Positions 9,228-44,616 of a DNA stretch of 64,000 bases are shown here, piece by piece. The notes under the pieces are model-generated. The model searched no databases. It saw only the letters and a list, made by a program, of their open reading frames with translations, and had not been told where the DNA came from. Positions within the stretch are counted from its first letter, which is position 1. Each line of letters begins with the position of its first letter. Source of the DNA: Candidatus Manganitrophus noduliformans (lineage in GTDB: Bacteria > Nitrospirota > Nitrospiria > SBBL01 > Manganitrophaceae); NCBI RefSeq assembly GCF_012184425.1, contig NZ_VTOW01000009.1, positions 1 to 64,000 on the forward strand. Direction: 5' to 3'. Made by a program: the position numbers and the translations under genes.

Positions 9228-10325
9228 ATGGATTTGATAAACCCGAAGGAAGAAAAGGGAAAGGTCGAGTGTAACCTCGAAGAATTCCCGTATTTCATTC
9301 CCTCAACGAAGAACCTCAAAGATCAACACGAGATTATCTTCGTCCGGACGGTCCAGAACAGGCAAGGGGAGACTTTCCGGCAGGAGTGGATCGTTCGAGC
9401 TGAGCACGGCGACCACCTTCCCGGATCGTTCGAAGCCGATGTCAAAAGGGCCCTCGATAAGATCGTCTACGACATCGGTTTTCAAACCGTGATTGAGACG
9501 GGGATCATTAAATTCTCGCTTTACCAGATCGCAGAGATCCTCGGACTTGGCCATGGCGGCTGGACCTGGCAGCGTATTCGCAAAGCCCTCGAGCGGATGA
9601 AAACAACTAACATTCACTCGAAGCAGTCTTTCTATCTGAAGGGGAAAAATGTTTATGTCGATGATGTCTTCTCATACATCGACAACGTCCGATTCTATCA
9701 ACTCGGCGATGAGAGCCGGACAAATAATTGCACCTGCCAGGTCAAATTCTCCAAATATTACATTGAAAGCTTAAAGGGACATTACATCAAGCCGTTCGAT
9801 TTTGGTTTTTACTGGTCCCTGGGTGATCCCATTCCGAAGCGCCTGTATTCCCTCTTTGATAAGAGAAGCTACACATCGCCGACCGTAACATTTGACCTGA
9901 TCGAACTGGGTAAAATAATTCCACTCACCAAGCGCCCTCCTTCAAAAATTCGGCAGTGTATTCTTCCAGGCCTCAATCTCCTTAAAGAGAGAGGATACTT
10001 AGTCGACTATTCATTTCGAAAATCGGTCGGGAGCAAGGGCGAGGCGCTGATCGTTCGCGTCAAGGGCAAGGAAGACATTGATCCGGAAGTTAAGGCGTTG
10101 GCTGAATCGATCTTCGAAGACATCGTCAGAAATATTGGTGTGGAGCATCGCTCAGAAAAATTCTATCGCCGCATATGTGAGAAATTGCCACGCAATATTA
10201 TTTATAGAGCCCTTTCCGAAGTTCGGGAGGAAGAACAACACGGTCAGGTTCAATCGAAAATCGCTTTATTCACGACGAAGATAAAAAGATTTGCGGATGA
10301 AGCCGATATACCAATCTATGATTGA
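9228..10325 (+). CDS. repA: Plasmid replication initiator (RPA family)
   Basis: The 365-residue protein fits the RPA/RepA initiator family: an opening LEEFPYFIPSTKNLK, a winged-helix stretch (SLYQIAEILGLGHGGWTWQR, residues about 93-112), the beta-rich YVDDVFSYIDNVRFYQ and a second winged helix around IPKRLYSLFDKRSY and the following 60 residues. Such proteins bind iterons and load the host helicase. The C-terminal 80 residues are charged and less conserved. Nine iterons and an AT-rich tract lie directly upstream, and parAB lies upstream of these. Start chosen at the ATG after AGGACACGAGCGAAT; no other start fits better. Confidence 0.85.
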   Translation: MDLINPKEEKGKVECNLEEFPYFIPSTKNLKDQHEIIFVRTVQNRQGETFRQEWIVRAEHGDHLPGSFEADVKRALDKIVYDIGFQTVIETGIIKFSLYQIAEILGLGHGGWTWQRIRKALERMKTTNIHSKQSFYLKGKNVYVDDVFSYIDNVRFYQLGDESRTNNCTCQVKFSKYYIESLKGHYIKPFDFGFYWSLGDPIPKRLYSLFDKRSYTSPTVTFDLIELGKIIPLTKRPPSKIRQCILPGLNLLKERGYLVDYSFRKSVGSKGEALIVRVKGKEDIDPEVKALAESIFEDIVRNIGVEHRSEKFYRRICEKLPRNIIYRALSEVREEEQHGQVQSKIALFTTKIKRFADEADIPIYD

Positions 10326-38528: not shown

Positions 38529-38792
38529 ATGTCTGATTTAGCGACAACAAAAATGTCCTCCAAAGGGCAGGTCGTCATTCCGGAGAATATTCGTAAGCGA
38601 CTGAAATTAAAAGCCGGCTCTCAGTTCGTAGTGGTAGGGGACGAAGATGTGGTGATCCTCAAAGCCATTTCGGCTCCGTCTATGGAAGAGTTTGACACCT
38701 TGATCGCAGAGGCCCGTAAACAAGCCAGAGAAGCCGGTTTGAAGAAGGCGGATATCGCTGCTGCAGTTGCGAAGGCCCGGGGCCGGAATTGA
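38529..38792 (+). CDS. SpoVT/AbrB-type antitoxin
   Basis: The 87-residue protein opens with the swapped-hairpin AbrB motif TKMSSKGQVVIPENIRKRLK and LKAGSQFVVVGDEDVVILKA, then a helical tail (FDTLIAEARKQAREAGLKKA). It pairs with a COG1569-type PIN toxin whose first codons overlap its stop. Confidence 0.85.
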   Translation: MSDLATTKMSSKGQVVIPENIRKRLKLKAGSQFVVVGDEDVVILKAISAPSMEEFDTLIAEARKQAREAGLKKADIAAAVAKARGRN

Positions 38793-39194
38793 GAATTATT
38801 CTCGACACGCATGTTTTTTGTCTCAGGGGTGTTCTTTACCGGTCCTCCTTATCAGATCCTCAAAGCGTGGAGAGAGGGAAGAGTAAGATTGATCGTCTCC
38901 CCGGAAATACTCGAGGAGTACGAGCGAGTCGGCAAAATCCTTGCTGAGGAATTCCCATCCATCAACCTTCAGCCAATCCTCGATTTTGTTACAATCAAGG
39001 CGGAGATAATTTCTGCTGAACGGTTATCTGAGCGTGTCAGCGACGATCCTGACGATGATAAATTTCTTGCCTGCGCGATTTCAGCGAACAGTAAAATCGT
39101 TATCAGTGGAGACCGGCATTTGCTAAAGGTGTCTGGTTTCAGGGGCATTAAAGTAATGAAGCCACGTCCTTTTGTCGATGACTATCTCACTTGA
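38789..39194 (+). pseudogene. COG1569-type PIN toxin with T6 frameshift
   Basis: The natural start (TTG at 38789, overlapping the antitoxin stop) reads LRIILDTHVF and then runs into a six-T tract at 38813-38818. The rest continues one frame over as VSGVFFTGPPYQILKAWREG to DDKFLACAISANSKIVISGD. Removing one T restores a normal PIN toxin (DTHVFVSGVFF). In the uncorrected frame the first in-frame ATG (38811) omits the catalytic Asp of LDTH. It may be a loss-of-function mutation, polymerase slippage at the T tract, or a sequencing error. Confidence 0.65.
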
Positions 39195-39304
39195 TCTTCT
39201 CAATACTTTTGCTATCCGAAACTGTTAGGGAAAATAATCTGATTTCTTAGAATACTGGACGATCTTCCTCTGGCTGGAAAGATACTTTCGTCAGGTTCCC
39301 TTGC

Positions 39305-39348
39305 TTGACAAATAGGACATATTTCGTTAAAATAATGACAAATGTCAT
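39305..39348 (+). promoter_or_regulatory. Promoter/operator of the Xre-RES module
   Basis: TTGACA (39305-39310), 17-bp spacer, TAAAAT (39328-39333): a near-consensus sigma-70 promoter. ATGACA-aa-TGTCAT (39335-39348) overlaps the expected start point and suits autorepression by the antitoxin. Confidence 0.65.
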
Positions 39349-39371
39349 AGTACATGCAAAGAGAGGATTTC

Positions 39372-39818
39372 ATGGATACGCTTACAATAAAAGAGAGCGA
39401 CAAACAAGCGGATGCGATCTTCAAAAAGATCTTCCATAAGCAATTAAAATCCTACATGGACGTCATCGAAATGAGCAAAGAGGGGATCACCAAAGCCTCC
39501 CTCATGGAGTTTATTCATTTTTTAAACTTCTCGCCCGATCAGTTTGCACATTTGCTTCCCATCACGCTTCGCACGATTCAGAGATACTCCAGCAAGCAGA
39601 AATTTAGCCCCACCATCTCCGAGCACATTATCCAGTTGGTCTTTCTCGTGGGAAAAGGCATCGAGGTGTTCGGATCACTCGAGAAGTTTATGGGCTGGTT
39701 TAATACACCGAGCAAGGCCTTAGGCGGGAGGGTCCCGAGCGATTTGGTCAGTCTTAAAACCGGGACCCAAATGGTCATGGACGAACTCGGTCGAATTGAG
39801 TATGGTGTGTATGCATGA
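39372..39818 (+). CDS. Xre/MbcA/ParS-type antitoxin (DUF2384)
   Basis: About 148 residues from ATG 39372 (after GAGAGGATTTC; the frame is open from 39354). It has an N-terminal HTH-like region (LMEFIHFLNFSPDQFAHLLP then LRTIQRYSSKQ) and the DUF2384 toxin-binding C-terminus (GKGIEVFGSLEKFMGWFNTP, ALGGRVPSDLVSLKTG). It overlaps the RES-domain gene by 4 bp. Confidence 0.88.
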   Translation: MDTLTIKESDKQADAIFKKIFHKQLKSYMDVIEMSKEGITKASLMEFIHFLNFSPDQFAHLLPITLRTIQRYSSKQKFSPTISEHIIQLVFLVGKGIEVFGSLEKFMGWFNTPSKALGGRVPSDLVSLKTGTQMVMDELGRIEYGVYA

Positions 39819-40285
39819 GGGAGGTCTATCGGATCGCCCTCGCAAAACATGCGCGCGACCTCTCAGGAAAGGGGGCGAGACTCACGGGGGGCCGATGGAA
39901 CACCAAAGATACGGCGGTCATCTACACCTCTGAGAGTAGATCGCTCGCGGCAATGGAATACCTGGTCCATGTGTCGCTGACTGACATCCCACCCGAAATA
40001 AAAATAACCTCGATCGGCATCTCTGAAACGATCATTCCGAAAGAAATCGATCCATCCGATCTACCCAAAGATTGGCGTAAAAGTCCCGCCCCTTTCTTGT
40101 TGGGAGACATCGGTGCGAAGTGGGTATCGGGTATGGATAGCCTTTTATTGCGCGTTCCATCCGCCGTTGTCCTGCATGAGTTTAACATCCTAATTAACCC
40201 GGCTCACCCCGACATGAAATCCGTCAAAATCGTCGATGTGGAGAGCTTTATCTATGATGAGAGACTCCACAAGCCGACGAAATAA
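39815..40285 (+). CDS. RES-domain toxin
   Basis: The 156-residue protein has the RES motifs: YRIALAKHARDLSGKGARLT, GGRWN with Arg, YTSESRSLAAMEYLVHV with Glu, and SAVVLHEFNILINPAHPDMK. RES toxins degrade NAD+ or ADP-ribosylate targets. It is coupled to the antitoxin by ATGA overlap and looks intact. Confidence 0.88.
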   Translation: MREVYRIALAKHARDLSGKGARLTGGRWNTKDTAVIYTSESRSLAAMEYLVHVSLTDIPPEIKITSIGISETIIPKEIDPSDLPKDWRKSPAPFLLGDIGAKWVSGMDSLLLRVPSAVVLHEFNILINPAHPDMKSVKIVDVESFIYDERLHKPTK

Positions 40286-40350
40286 TAAAAGCGGTATCAC
40301 TCCATGATTAAAGATCGACCAAAGACCGGCTCGCTGTCTGCGCCGGAGTC

Positions 40351-40449
40351 GGCTCGGGGAGCGCTGCCGGCAGAGGTATCGAATCCGCCTTAATTGAATC
40401 CTGACGAAATAGCCCGAAGTCGGGGTCAACCATCATAGTCCTGCGGAGC
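40351..40449 (+). ncRNA. Duplicated structured intergenic element, copy A
   Basis: About 100 nt strongly similar to 41355-41460, including CGCTGCCGG, ATCCGCCTTAAT, GAATCC, CCCGAAGTCGGG (a hairpin whose arms are kept in both copies while the loop varies) and GGTCAACCATCATAG. No terminator follows this copy. No coding capacity. A cis-regulatory RNA or a small mobile RNA element is likely. Confidence 0.5.
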
Positions 40450-40644
40450 AAACATGAGGTTTTAGCGCAGGTAATCCGGTTTCTGCCGACACGTCAGAGT
40501 GGTCCGGAGGATCCTGCAGGCCAAGAGGCGGCTGAGGATGAAGGGAGCGATGAGATTCCTTTGGATCATGTTCTGCATCTGCGCTTTGGATTTGATCTTG
40601 TGATCGAAAATTGTTACACTTAAGGCAGTTCTCGGAGAGAGAAG
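40450..40644. other. Intergenic, nothing else recognised
   Basis: Leader region of the Uma2 gene; TTGTTACACTTAAGG near 40606-40620 may hold promoter elements. Confidence 0.35.
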
Positions 40645-41196
40645 ATGTTGAAGACGAAGATCAAATTAACCTATGCCGATTATGTCGCCCTGCCCGATGA
40701 GAAGCGCTACGAATTGATCGAGGGGGATCTTTATATGGTTCCAGCGCCCGGGTTCTATCACCAGGTTGTTTCTCGAAATATTGAAATGGCCCTTTGGGAT
40801 ATTGTGAAGTCCCACCGCTTGGGAGTGGTGCTAGATGCCCCGGTGGATGTGGTCCTCACCCAGGAAGATGTGGTTCAACCCGATATTCTGTTTATCTCCA
40901 ACGAACGGCGCAGCATCATTACCGAGAAGTATCTCTCCGGTGCGCCTGATTTGATCATCGAGATCCTCTCCCCCTCCTCAATGGAGCGGGATAAACTCGT
41001 CAAACGCAATCTGTATGCCGAGCATGGGGTTTCCGAATACTGGATCGTCAATCCGGTAGGGAAACAGATCGAGGTCCTTCTTCTGAAAAGCCATGCGTTT
41101 GTTCTGTACGGAATCTTTTTAATCGATGATCGCCTCACCTCCCCGCTCCTGCCGGGGTTTGAACTTTCCCTTGAGAGCGTTTTTGAACCCGCATAG
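40645..41196 (+). CDS. Uma2-family (DUF820) putative nuclease
   Basis: The 183-residue protein has the Uma2 PD-(D/E)XK-like pattern: ADYVALPDEKRYELIEGDLY, VVQPDILFISNERR, APDLIIEILSPSS and RDKLVKRNLYAEHGVSEYWI, where Asp, Glu and Lys would form the nuclease site. Most family members are uncharacterised and highly multiplied in some genomes. AGAGAGAAG precedes the ATG. Confidence 0.88.
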   Translation: MLKTKIKLTYADYVALPDEKRYELIEGDLYMVPAPGFYHQVVSRNIEMALWDIVKSHRLGVVLDAPVDVVLTQEDVVQPDILFISNERRSIITEKYLSGAPDLIIEILSPSSMERDKLVKRNLYAEHGVSEYWIVNPVGKQIEVLLLKSHAFVLYGIFLIDDRLTSPLLPGFELSLESVFEPA

Positions 41197-41311
41197 CCAG
41201 TTGACCTCCTGCGCTTCTATCCCCAGTGACGCGGGGTGGTTGGGTTTGGATTTCGCTTCCTCCATCTCCTAGAGATGAAGCCTCCAAGAAATAGTGGGAT
41301 GATAAATCTAT

Positions 41312-41343
41312 GCCTGAAGAGATATTTCCTTCAGGCTTTTTTG
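41312..41343 (+). terminator. Rho-independent terminator after the Uma2 gene
   Basis: GCCTGAA / TTCAGGC stem with an 11-base loop and TTTTTT. Confidence 0.75.
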
Positions 41344-41354
41344 TTTTCGGATTC

Positions 41355-41482
41355 GGCAAGGGGAAACGCTGCCGGTGGGACTATCTGATCCGCCTTAATG
41401 GAATCCGTTCGTAAATAGGCCCGAATGCCGGGTCAACCATCATAGCCCTTCGGAGAAGCAATTCTCCCGAGGGCTTTTTTTA
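41355..41482 (+). ncRNA. Duplicated structured element, copy B, ending in a terminator
   Basis: Second copy of the element at 40351. Here it runs directly into a strong terminator (CCCTTCGGAGAA / TTCTCCCGAGGG stem, then seven T residues, 41446-41482), 20 bp before the ribosome-binding site of a small zinc-ribbon gene. The CCCGAATGCCGGG hairpin and GGTCAACCATCATAG are conserved with copy A. The layout suits a transcription-attenuating riboswitch or leader for the downstream gene. It matches no riboswitch class I can name. Confidence 0.5.
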
Positions 41483-41502: not shown

Positions 41503-41673
41503 ATGCATTGTCCGAAGTGTCAGGGAATGGTAAGAGAGGAATTTGTAGCCACCTACGAGGGGAAATGTCTCTCCCCGTATTGCATTCAATGCGGCTGGAG
41601 GCCGACACGATCTCCGCACCGCAGCTTTCAAGAGGAAGCACGGCTGAGGGAAAAAGTGCTTTCGATCCTGTAA
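41503..41673 (+). CDS. Small zinc-ribbon protein, 56 residues
   Basis: Starts MHCPKCQGMVREEFVATYEG; the second pair is CIQCGWRPTRSP, giving a CxxC-N-CxxC zinc ribbon. AAAGGAGG lies six bases before the ATG. It sits directly downstream of the structured element and its terminator, so the element may control it. A similar tiny zinc ribbon lies at 44730. Function unknown; nucleic-acid or protein binding is likely. Confidence 0.6.
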   Translation: MHCPKCQGMVREEFVATYEGKCLSPYCIQCGWRPTRSPHRSFQEEARLREKVLSIL

Positions 41674-41798: not shown

Positions 41799-42227
41799 AT
41801 GGAACGGAATCAGAATCGTATTGCCAATCTGGTCAATGGGTTTCAGGCGCTCGCGCCGCTCGCCCCGAACCAAAATCGGACCCAGGAGAATATCAGCCCG
41901 CGAATGTCGGTGGGATATTACATCGGCCGCTTCGGGCTGAAATTCAAGGAGGCAGATCGACTCACCCATTTTCTCTACCTGTTCATGGCGGAGGAAGACC
42001 GGTACTTTCTATCGCGCGTGGAGCGGTGGGTCAGAGAGATCGCGCTCACGAAAGGGAGCATTCGGTCCGTCCTGGACGATCTCATGATCCTGGCGGTCTG
42101 CCGGATCGATCCGAATCGACCGGAGCGTTGCTGCAGACGGGTTCGCAGCGAAATCATCCGGTATGTCGATCGGCGATTTCAGCGCGATCGGCGGGAGAGT
42201 CGGAATGAAGGCTCGGGTTCGGCTTGA
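41799..42227 (+). CDS. Hypothetical protein, 142 residues
   Basis: Starts after AATAGGAGAGACGCCA. It is Arg-rich and helical (EADRLTHFLYLFMAEEDRYF, VERWVREIALTKGSIRSVLD, RRVRSEIIRYVDRRFQRDRR). Family not recognised. It lies between the zinc-ribbon gene and the nrdJ control region on the same strand. Confidence 0.55.
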   Translation: MERNQNRIANLVNGFQALAPLAPNQNRTQENISPRMSVGYYIGRFGLKFKEADRLTHFLYLFMAEEDRYFLSRVERWVREIALTKGSIRSVLDDLMILAVCRIDPNRPERCCRRVRSEIIRYVDRRFQRDRRESRNEGSGSA

Positions 42228-42429: not shown

Positions 42430-44616
42430 ATGCAGACAGTAACCTTGTCCCCAAATGCAATACGGGTTTTAGAGAAGCGGTATCTCGCTAAGAGCGCAAA
42501 AGGGGAGGTGATCGAGACCGCCGAGGAGCTCTTTCGGCGGGTGGCGAAGAATATCGCGGAAGCAGATCCGCACTACAATGCTACCGAAGATCCGGCGAAG
42601 ACCGAGGATGCGTTCTACGCGTTGATGGTCTCGGGACGTTTTCTTCCGAATTCACCCACGCTGATGAACGCCGGCCGGGAGCTGCAGCAGCTCTCCGCCT
42701 GTTTTGTCCTTCCGGTGGGAGACTCCATCTGCGAGATCTTCGACGCGGTCAAACAGACCGCGATCATCCATAAGAGCGGCGGCGGAACGGGATTCTCTTT
42801 CTCCCGGCTTCGCCCGAAAGACGATCTGGTCCGAACGACCGGAGGGGTTTCCTCCGGTCCGGTCTCCTTTATGAGCGTCTTCAACCACACCACCGAGGCG
42901 ATCAAACAAGGAGGCACTCGCCGGGGCGCCAACATGGGGATTCTGAGGGTGGACCACCCCGATATCCTCGATTTTATCCACTGTAAAGCCGATACCGGCA
43001 AGATCATCAATTTCAACATCTCCGTGGCGATCACCGACGAATTCATGCGGGCGGCCAGGGAGGATAAAGACTACCCCCTCATCAACCCGCGGACGCGCGA
43101 AACCGTCAAGCGGCTCTCCGCCCGAATGGTTCTCGATGAAATCGCCAAAGAGGCGCATGCCACAGGCGAGCCGGGTCTTTTCTTCGTCGATGTCACCAAT
43201 CGGACCAATCCCACCCCCCACGTCGGTGAGATCGAGGCGACCAACCCCTGCGGGGAGCAGCCGCTGCTTCCCTATGAGAGCTGCAATCTGGGAAGCATCA
43301 ACCTGGAGCGCCACCTGAAGCGGATCGACGATCGGTACGAGATCGACTGGGAAGCGCTCGAGGGAACGATCCGTACATCGGTGCATTTTCTCGACAACGT
43401 CATCGACGTGAACCGTTATCCGATCCGGCAGATCGAGGAGATCACCAAAGCGAACCGGAAGATCGGCCTGGGTGTGATGGGATTCGCCAGGATGCTCTTT
43501 AAGCTGGGCGTTCCGTACAACTGCCTCGATGGACTGCGGGTGGCGCAACAGGTGATGGCCTTTGTGCGTCGGGTGGGATATGAGCAGTCCGGCCAGCTCG
43601 CGGAGCTGCGGGGGGTCTACCCGAACTGGAGAGGCTCTCTTCATGAAAAACGGGGTCAGCGGGTTCGCAACGCCTACATCACGACGATCGCCCCCACCGG
43701 GACCGTCTCGATGATCGCCGACACCTCCGGAGGATGTGAGCCGGAGTTTAGTCTCATCTGGTACAAGAACGTCATGGACGGAGAGAAACTCCCCTACATC
43801 CTCGACTATCTGATCGAAGCGGCAAAGCGGGAGGGCTTCTGGAGTGAGGATCTGCTCGAGCGGATCGTGAAAAACAAGGGATCGGTCAATGGAATCGATC
43901 AAGTCCCCCCGGAATGGCAGAGGGTTTTCGTCACCGCGCATGAGATCTCGCCGGAGTGGCATGTTCGCATGCAGGCGGCCTTTCAGGAGTATTCCGACTC
44001 CGCCGTCAGCAAGACGATCAATCTTCCATCGGATGCCGGCGTGGAGGAGGTCACGAAAGCCTACCTGCTTGCCTACGAGCTCGGTTGCAAAGGGATCACC
44101 GTCTACCGGGACGGCGCGCGGCCCGACCAGGTGATGAATGTGGGCTCTTTTCGGAGAAACGGAGACGGATCGCACGGCCCCGCTCCCGAGGACTTGGCGT
44201 GGGGGAAACTTGTCGAACTCGCCGACATTGTCGATGAAAAGCGGATCCGGGTAAAAACCGCCGACGGCAACGCCTACCTCCACGTCGGACTGGTCGACGG
44301 TCAGCCGAGAGAGATTTTTGGAAATCCTGCTCTCGGCGCCTATCAAAGCACCGTCGCCCTGGTTTGCCGATTGGGCTCGACCGTCTTAAGACTCGGCGGA
44401 ACGGTTGAGATGATCATGGATCAGCTCAACAAGGTCCACCGGGAGTATGGAGATGTAAGAATCCCGCTTCTGGCCTTGAATCGGGGTTTTCAGCGGGTCA
44501 TGGAAGATCTCGGTCAACACGTGTCGATCACGGAGAGCTGTCCGGAGTGTCGTCGCCAGATGCGGATGGTTGAAGGCTGCATGAAATGTCACGACTGCGG
44601 ATTCAGCCGCTGTTAG
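42430..44616 (+). CDS. nrdJ: Adenosylcobalamin-dependent (class II) ribonucleotide reductase
   Basis: The 728-residue enzyme has the class II core: NSPTLMNAG with AdoCbl-site context, GGGTGFSFSRLRPKDDLVRT, the radical Cys and Glu in NPCGEQPLLPYESCNLGS (Cys274), and ITTIAPTGTVSMIADTSGGC. The C-terminus has the redox/zinc cluster CPECRRQMRM...CMKCHDCGF. It reduces ribonucleotides to deoxyribonucleotides without oxygen, using vitamin B12. The frame is open from 42385, but the ATG at 42430 after AAAGAGGTG is preferred. A sigma-54-type promoter lies 42 bp upstream, an unusual control for this enzyme. Confidence 0.93.
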   Translation: MQTVTLSPNAIRVLEKRYLAKSAKGEVIETAEELFRRVAKNIAEADPHYNATEDPAKTEDAFYALMVSGRFLPNSPTLMNAGRELQQLSACFVLPVGDSICEIFDAVKQTAIIHKSGGGTGFSFSRLRPKDDLVRTTGGVSSGPVSFMSVFNHTTEAIKQGGTRRGANMGILRVDHPDILDFIHCKADTGKIINFNISVAITDEFMRAAREDKDYPLINPRTRETVKRLSARMVLDEIAKEAHATGEPGLFFVDVTNRTNPTPHVGEIEATNPCGEQPLLPYESCNLGSINLERHLKRIDDRYEIDWEALEGTIRTSVHFLDNVIDVNRYPIRQIEEITKANRKIGLGVMGFARMLFKLGVPYNCLDGLRVAQQVMAFVRRVGYEQSGQLAELRGVYPNWRGSLHEKRGQRVRNAYITTIAPTGTVSMIADTSGGCEPEFSLIWYKNVMDGEKLPYILDYLIEAAKREGFWSEDLLERIVKNKGSVNGIDQVPPEWQRVFVTAHEISPEWHVRMQAAFQEYSDSAVSKTINLPSDAGVEEVTKAYLLAYELGCKGITVYRDGARPDQVMNVGSFRRNGDGSHGPAPEDLAWGKLVELADIVDEKRIRVKTADGNAYLHVGLVDGQPREIFGNPALGAYQSTVALVCRLGSTVLRLGGTVEMIMDQLNKVHREYGDVRIPLLALNRGFQRVMEDLGQHVSITESCPECRRQMRMVEGCMKCHDCGFSRC

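Follow-up and report, generated by a model that had tools for sequence, protein, structure and literature searches.

Two similar intergenic elements, one of them leading into a terminator just before a small zinc-ribbon gene, raised the question of whether this locus encodes a structured regulatory RNA and, if so, which genes are under its control. The stretch analyzed, termed the window, comprises 64,000 nt of contig C9 (G000:C9) of a 5.17-Mb genome related to Candidatus Manganitrophus (Nitrospirota, Troglogloeales). The window region is also present, at about 98.5% identity, in three Manganitrophus plasmid records.

Two copies of the element in the window

A repeat search of the window detected direct repeats at 40356-40401/41361-41406 (78% identical) and 40412-40448/41419-41455 (86% identical), with a spacing of about 1,005 bp between the repeat blocks, and BLASTN with copy B as the query against its own genome recovered copy A at E=2e-16. 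The first-pass annotation was, therefore, correct in describing two real copies. The repeats it had delimited were recovered, but the element itself starts ~8 nt further 5′, with the cores of A and B beginning at 40343 and 41347, respectively.

40343-40431, plus strand: element copy A, ~90 nt, three-way junction and P4, without T1 and without T2
41347-41438, plus strand: element copy B, ~90 nt (core of 92 nt), leading into intrinsic terminator T2

The same BLASTN search detected four more copies or part copies in this genome, with the extra copies being on contigs C1 and C2 and the part copies including one on C7. Copy A starts 57 nt after a RES toxin gene, and directly 3′ of it, at 40444-40563, there is a C-terminal SSB gene remnant (75% across 40 aa). 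A score of 72.8 bits (E=1e-15) was obtained for copy A with covariance model R1. The annotated retention of CCCG/CGGG arms around an altered loop was also seen (CCCG-AATGC-CGGG in B and CCCG-AAGTC-GGGG in A), with the qualification that the innermost P4 pair of A is broken in the window and intact in the GAC4 plasmid copy. In the window version of A, P1 and P2 each contain one broken pair and the P4 closing pair is lost. Copy A is probably a decayed duplicate that has lost T1 and T2.

A conserved fold on the plus strand

The consensus for the junction and P4 was derived from an alignment (A2) of ten cores, and identical P1-P4 helices were produced by RNAalifold without guidance.

41349-41406, plus strand: three-way junction of element B, same helices from RNAalifold unaided, with compensatory changes
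41349-41354/41401-41406, plus strand: P1 of B, GGAUUC/GAAUCC
41355-41358/41370-41373, plus strand: P2 of B, GGCA/UGCC, with a conserved loop of 10-11 nt, AGGGGA(A)ACGC
41374-41378/41390-41394, plus strand: P3 of B, GGCGG/CCGCC
41395-41399, plus strand: conserved, unpaired junction UUAAU
41419-41433, plus strand: P4 hairpin, CCCG/CGGG, with pair changes across 13 loci

Covariation had been set beforehand as a test and was present, with compensatory changes. Within the junction and P4, 97.4% of cells were paired and 5 pairs had changed on both sides; these levels of paired cells and double changes, and the covariation score, were matched in 0 of 500 shuffles, a statistic that ignores kinship among loci and was supplemented by changes at distant loci and by slid-partner controls, in which paired cells dropped to 31 to 56%. 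An A-U pair of P2 is replaced by G-C in genomes G004 and G005 and a G-C pair of P3 by A-U in G014, while among 13 loci one P4 pair occurs as C-G, U-A and G-C and the next as A-U, G-U and G-C. Taken together, P4 and T2 exhibited 7 double-change pairs at the 13 loci (14 cells versus 3.7 in shuffles). Wobbles consisted of 29 G-U versus 3 A-C pairs, indicating that the fold is that of the plus-strand RNA and disfavouring a minus-strand reading.

The unpaired loop AGGGGAAC is conserved, as is the junction sequence. Identity between loci was 70 to 88% for the RNA core and 69 to 86% for nrdJ DNA, relative to a baseline of 51 to 64% in the 100 nt upstream. A pseudoknot between L2 and the P1 flank (AACG/CGUU) was rejected on inspection, being absent in loci L017 and L018. 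The GGGG of L2 is invariant across copies, and its pairing with the CCC of the P4 loop is possible.

Distribution of the family

Searching of genomes with model R1, a step proposed in the first-pass annotation, yielded 13 copies (E values of 3e-23 to 6e-3) in 6 of 18 genomes of Troglogloeales, five of these six being Candidatus Manganitrophus and one being from a related family. No credible R1 copy was detected in 270 Nitrospiria or 296 Nitrospirota genomes scanned under stricter filters. A 26.6-bit match in G434 lies antisense within an MgtE-like coding gene and was, therefore, ascribed to chance. A pattern scan of 85k genomes gave three matches outside Nitrospirota, in Acetatifactor, Desulfobacteraceae and Methylorubrum, that do not score as the RNA, and viral contigs gave no pattern match. 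None of the 4227 families of Rfam 15 matched the window or the homologous loci at the gathering threshold, and three copies searched at E<=10 returned chance-level matches only, in keeping with the earlier statement that the element fits no nameable class. As judged by sequence comparison, the element is a structured RNA family new to Rfam, with the fold, strand and synteny described here and a narrow distribution.

On C1 and C2, an arrangement of T1-X-P4-T2, with X differing, precedes p139. Part copies in which P4-T2 occurs without the junction are present at L071 and L074, and in G009, G013 and G014:C1 the same genes follow a terminator without a junction. The module can, therefore, do without the junction, a point against the leader function proposed below.

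Terminators and a proposed leader function

The layout previously described for copy B, a terminator before a gene, was recovered, but a second terminator-like hairpin (T1) on the 5′ side of B had been overlooked.

41312-41346, plus strand: T1, terminator-like hairpin (GCCTGAAG/CTTCAGGC plus T-run), directly 5′ of element B
41444-41481, plus strand: T2, intrinsic terminator, 13-pair stem at 41444-41475 with a T-run to 41481
41503-41673, plus strand: 56-aa zinc-ribbon protein P0001 (MHCPKCQG..CIQCGW..), with ribosome-binding site AAAGGAGG

T1 could be aligned at 11 homologous loci, with both arms varying in sequence, and is kept at most homologous copies, the exceptions being copy A and copy a of L073. 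In T2, five pairs had both-side changes across 13 loci, such that a terminator supported by covariation lies 5′ of the start codon, as in an attenuator. The good ribosome-binding site of P0001 is situated in the 22 bp between the end of T2 and the ATG (41503), and the order of T2, ribosome-binding site and start codon recurs at nine loci, with T2 about 20 to 26 nt before the start. As in a leader RNA, the element with its compensatory changes is on the same strand as, and directly 5′ of, the gene.

Regulated read-through is argued for by the position of T2, directly before a ribosome-binding site, and by the conserved fold upstream. We consider it somewhat probable that the element is a cis-acting structured 5′ leader RNA of the module operons which controls read-through of T2, the regulation itself being exerted, we infer, at this terminator. 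The plus-strand transcript would fold into the three-way junction and P4, directly 5′ of T2; the state of the junction and P4 would then decide between termination at T2 and continued transcription into the zinc-ribbon/nrdJ or gp3/primase/uvrD genes. As a possible mechanism, P4 and T2 would both be formed in the off state, and the on state would be an antiterminator formed by pairing of P4 (CCGAA and GGG) with the 5′ arm of T2 (UUCGG and CCC). This antiterminator fold is compatible with 89.6% of cells and exhibited no covariation; P4/T2 complementarity was in weak excess over a structure-keeping null (p of 0.009 to 0.68, the loci being non-independent), and for transcripts cut before the T2 3′ arm the proposed antiterminator was the lowest-energy fold in 6 of 13 sequences. 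A P4/T2 antiterminator is possible on these data.

The earlier interpretation as an attenuating riboswitch was thus borne out with respect to the structured RNA and the attenuator-like layout, while a riboswitch is a candidate and only one of several leader readings. Our suggestion of what is sensed is tentative: the RNA may represent a new class of riboswitch, or a leader that senses a protein, and may couple the dNTP supply and replication genes of a plasmid or integrated element to a cellular signal (e.g., adenosylcobalamin or a nucleotide) or to the zinc-ribbon protein encoded there. A 90-nt RNA would suffice for direct tests of candidate ligands, since a single sequence family stands 5′ of nrdJ and primase operons alike.

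Genes behind the RNA

Analysis by tblastn gave the module order as zinc ribbon, s49, p103, s55, p148 and nrdJ, then p139, gp3 (PF18897), a CHC2/toprim primase and a UvrD helicase.

41799-42227, plus strand: p148 homologue, 47-52% identity to L073 10326-10772, conserved module member
42433-44616, plus strand: nrdJ, B12-dependent (class II) ribonucleotide reductase (Pfam Ribonuc_red_lgC, 2e-134)

The nrdJ homologue of L073 passes the NCBIfam PRK08665 cut-off. Copies of the RNA stand 5′ of the nrdJ operon or of the gp3-primase-uvrD operon. Two R1 copies, about 5 to 10 kb apart, are present at each of L067, L068 and L073. At L068, one precedes the nrdJ operon and the other p139-gp3-primase-uvrD; the second copy of L073 is without T2 and is situated 5′ of a MazF pair and of p139, and that of L067, close to the end of its contig, precedes a zinc-ribbon gene and s49. 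Relatives of gp3 were also found on betaproteobacterial plasmids and none in the phage collection. On gene content and order, the copies are assigned to a plasmid or integrated-element core module of Manganitrophaceae.

A TnpB-like gene (OrfB_IS605, Cas12f1-like) is inserted next to nrdJ at L067 6313-7581. On the same contig as the window, just upstream of the gp3-primase-uvrD operon of that contig, a CRISPR array with the repeat GTTGAAGAGAAGGTTCCACCAAAACAAGGATTGAAAC occupies L095 8000-8620 (G000:C9 about 72000-72620).

P0001 had no Pfam, PHROG or NCBIfam match. An AlphaFold2 model based on four sequences (pLDDT 79.5, pTM 0.52) predicted a two-strand ribbon with a C-terminal helix, for which the best Foldseek matches were NrdR and RNA polymerase zinc ribbons. 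All of the close homologues of P0001 were located downstream of this RNA or of its P4-T2 part, consistent with a leader that is bound by a protein, e.g., the zinc-ribbon protein in autoregulation, and not by a small molecule. The very weak likeness to NrdR and RNA polymerase zinc ribbons points the same way, but the fold match is non-significant (E=0.23), and the RNA directly precedes s49, not the zinc ribbon, in G004 and p139-gp3-primase-uvrD in the case of G005 copy 2; we regard this alternative as unlikely. Since the RNA also precedes genes other than zinc ribbons, metal sensing is not indicated, and the metal ligand that had been deduced from the downstream protein is unsupported. From gene order, the common denominator of the copies is the nrdJ and primase operons rather than the zinc ribbon.

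Flanking promoters and toxin genes

Flanking of the RNA by T1 and T2 at most copies, and the presence of copies before different operons, would also be expected of a free-standing ~130-nt sRNA, extending from T1 to T2 and acting in trans, with the downstream genes expressed by read-through or from their own start. This alternative is quite unlikely, as at nine loci the ribosome-binding site and start codon follow T2 within about 26 nt, too short a distance to accommodate another promoter, and neither computation nor inspection detected a sigma-70-like promoter between T1 and P1 or the junction. T1 begins 10 to 40 nt past the stop codon of the toxin gene at several loci and leaves little room for a promoter; transcription of the leader may, we infer, come from the upstream toxin operon.

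A candidate antisense promoter at 41489-41461 (9/12) was rejected as it is not conserved. A conserved promoter-like sequence, TTGACA-17-TAGACT, is located before s55, antisense to the operon, with a strong terminator (GGGGTCAATCAG...CTGGTTGATCCCTTTTT) downstream of it; such sites were found at L073 9958-10067, L068 7709-7814, L072 about 9306-9334, and L070 3973-4077 and 9665-9770. By sequence, this pair is a candidate for an antisense RNA of ~75 nt of the plasmid-copy-number-control kind.

Almost all copies and P4-T2 parts have a toxin gene, a toxin-antitoxin gene or Uma2 just 5′ of them, the families comprising Xre-RES, MazE-PIN, Phd-PIN, Fic, DUF433-DUF5615, an HTH gene after a likely HigB, and RHH-MazF. 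The upstream ORFs of G004 had no Pfam match, and the nrdJ-side copy on C2 had no evident toxin gene. In the window, a dense toxin-antitoxin stretch (38529-41196; MazE-PIN and Xre-RES, then Uma2) lies directly 5′ of the elements. A type III toxin-antitoxin system was rejected, as the protein encoded downstream is a zinc ribbon of 56 aa and the RNA has no repeat-array organization.

The variety of upstream genes could indicate a recombination boundary or cassette scar, i.e., a slot for toxin-antitoxin exchange in which the fold would have a role at the DNA level or no role. A degenerate T2 and zinc-ribbon start at L073 7990-8060, upstream of Xre-RES, indicates that units of the module recombine. 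This explanation is improbable, given that the compensatory changes and the strong bias of G-U over A-C pairs point to RNA, that conservation runs through T2 to the start codon and that no recombinase or inverted-repeat ends accompany the element. No transposase lies beside most copies and none travels with the element, and the copies track syntenic modules (ends examined in part for target duplications), so that a transposable element, which had been named as a refutation of the initial reading, was not found. Very improbable is a processive antiterminator RNA, by which RNA polymerase would be altered so as to pass T2 and subsequent terminators. Although a structured RNA just 5′ of terminators in a mobile-element operon has a cis-acting precedent in the put RNA (PMC9378689), T1 sits 5′ of the RNA and no strong plus-strand terminators, and thus little to override, occur from the zinc ribbon to the end of nrdJ at L068, L072 and L073.

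Comparison with known systems

If the leader reading is true, this is a new structured RNA family in a manganese-oxidising lineage, and a plasmid-type module for replication and dNTPs has both its operons governed by a common folded leader. To our knowledge, the Manganitrophus lineage is the only one known to live on manganese oxidation.

Cobalamin riboswitches precede genes for B12-dependent ribonucleotide reductases, and adenosylcobalamin is the cofactor of NrdJ. The element resembles them in its leader position in operons ending with nrdJ but differs in that cobalamin families are absent from the E<=10 Rfam lists of three copies and no B12-box was seen. In plasmid attenuation of the pT181/pIP501 type, a leader and terminator lie just before the replicon gene, a placement that the element shares; in contrast to these plasmids, no conserved antisense promoter lies opposite the leader, the promoter-terminator pair being located before s55. 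The HK022 put RNA (PMC9378689) is structured, acts in cis and is encoded by mobile DNA close to terminators; the element resembles it in its structure, its probable action in cis, its association with mobile DNA and its adjacency to terminators. Unlike put, it consists of a single junction and P4 followed by one terminator, with no downstream terminator series. Attenuation-type and orphan riboswitch candidates (PMC7266159) have the same succession of a junction with conserved loop residues, a terminator, a ribosome-binding site and a gene. The element differs from attenuation-type riboswitches in being without an Rfam class, in its occurrence in one genus and one relative and in its association with plasmid-type modules rather than metabolic operons.
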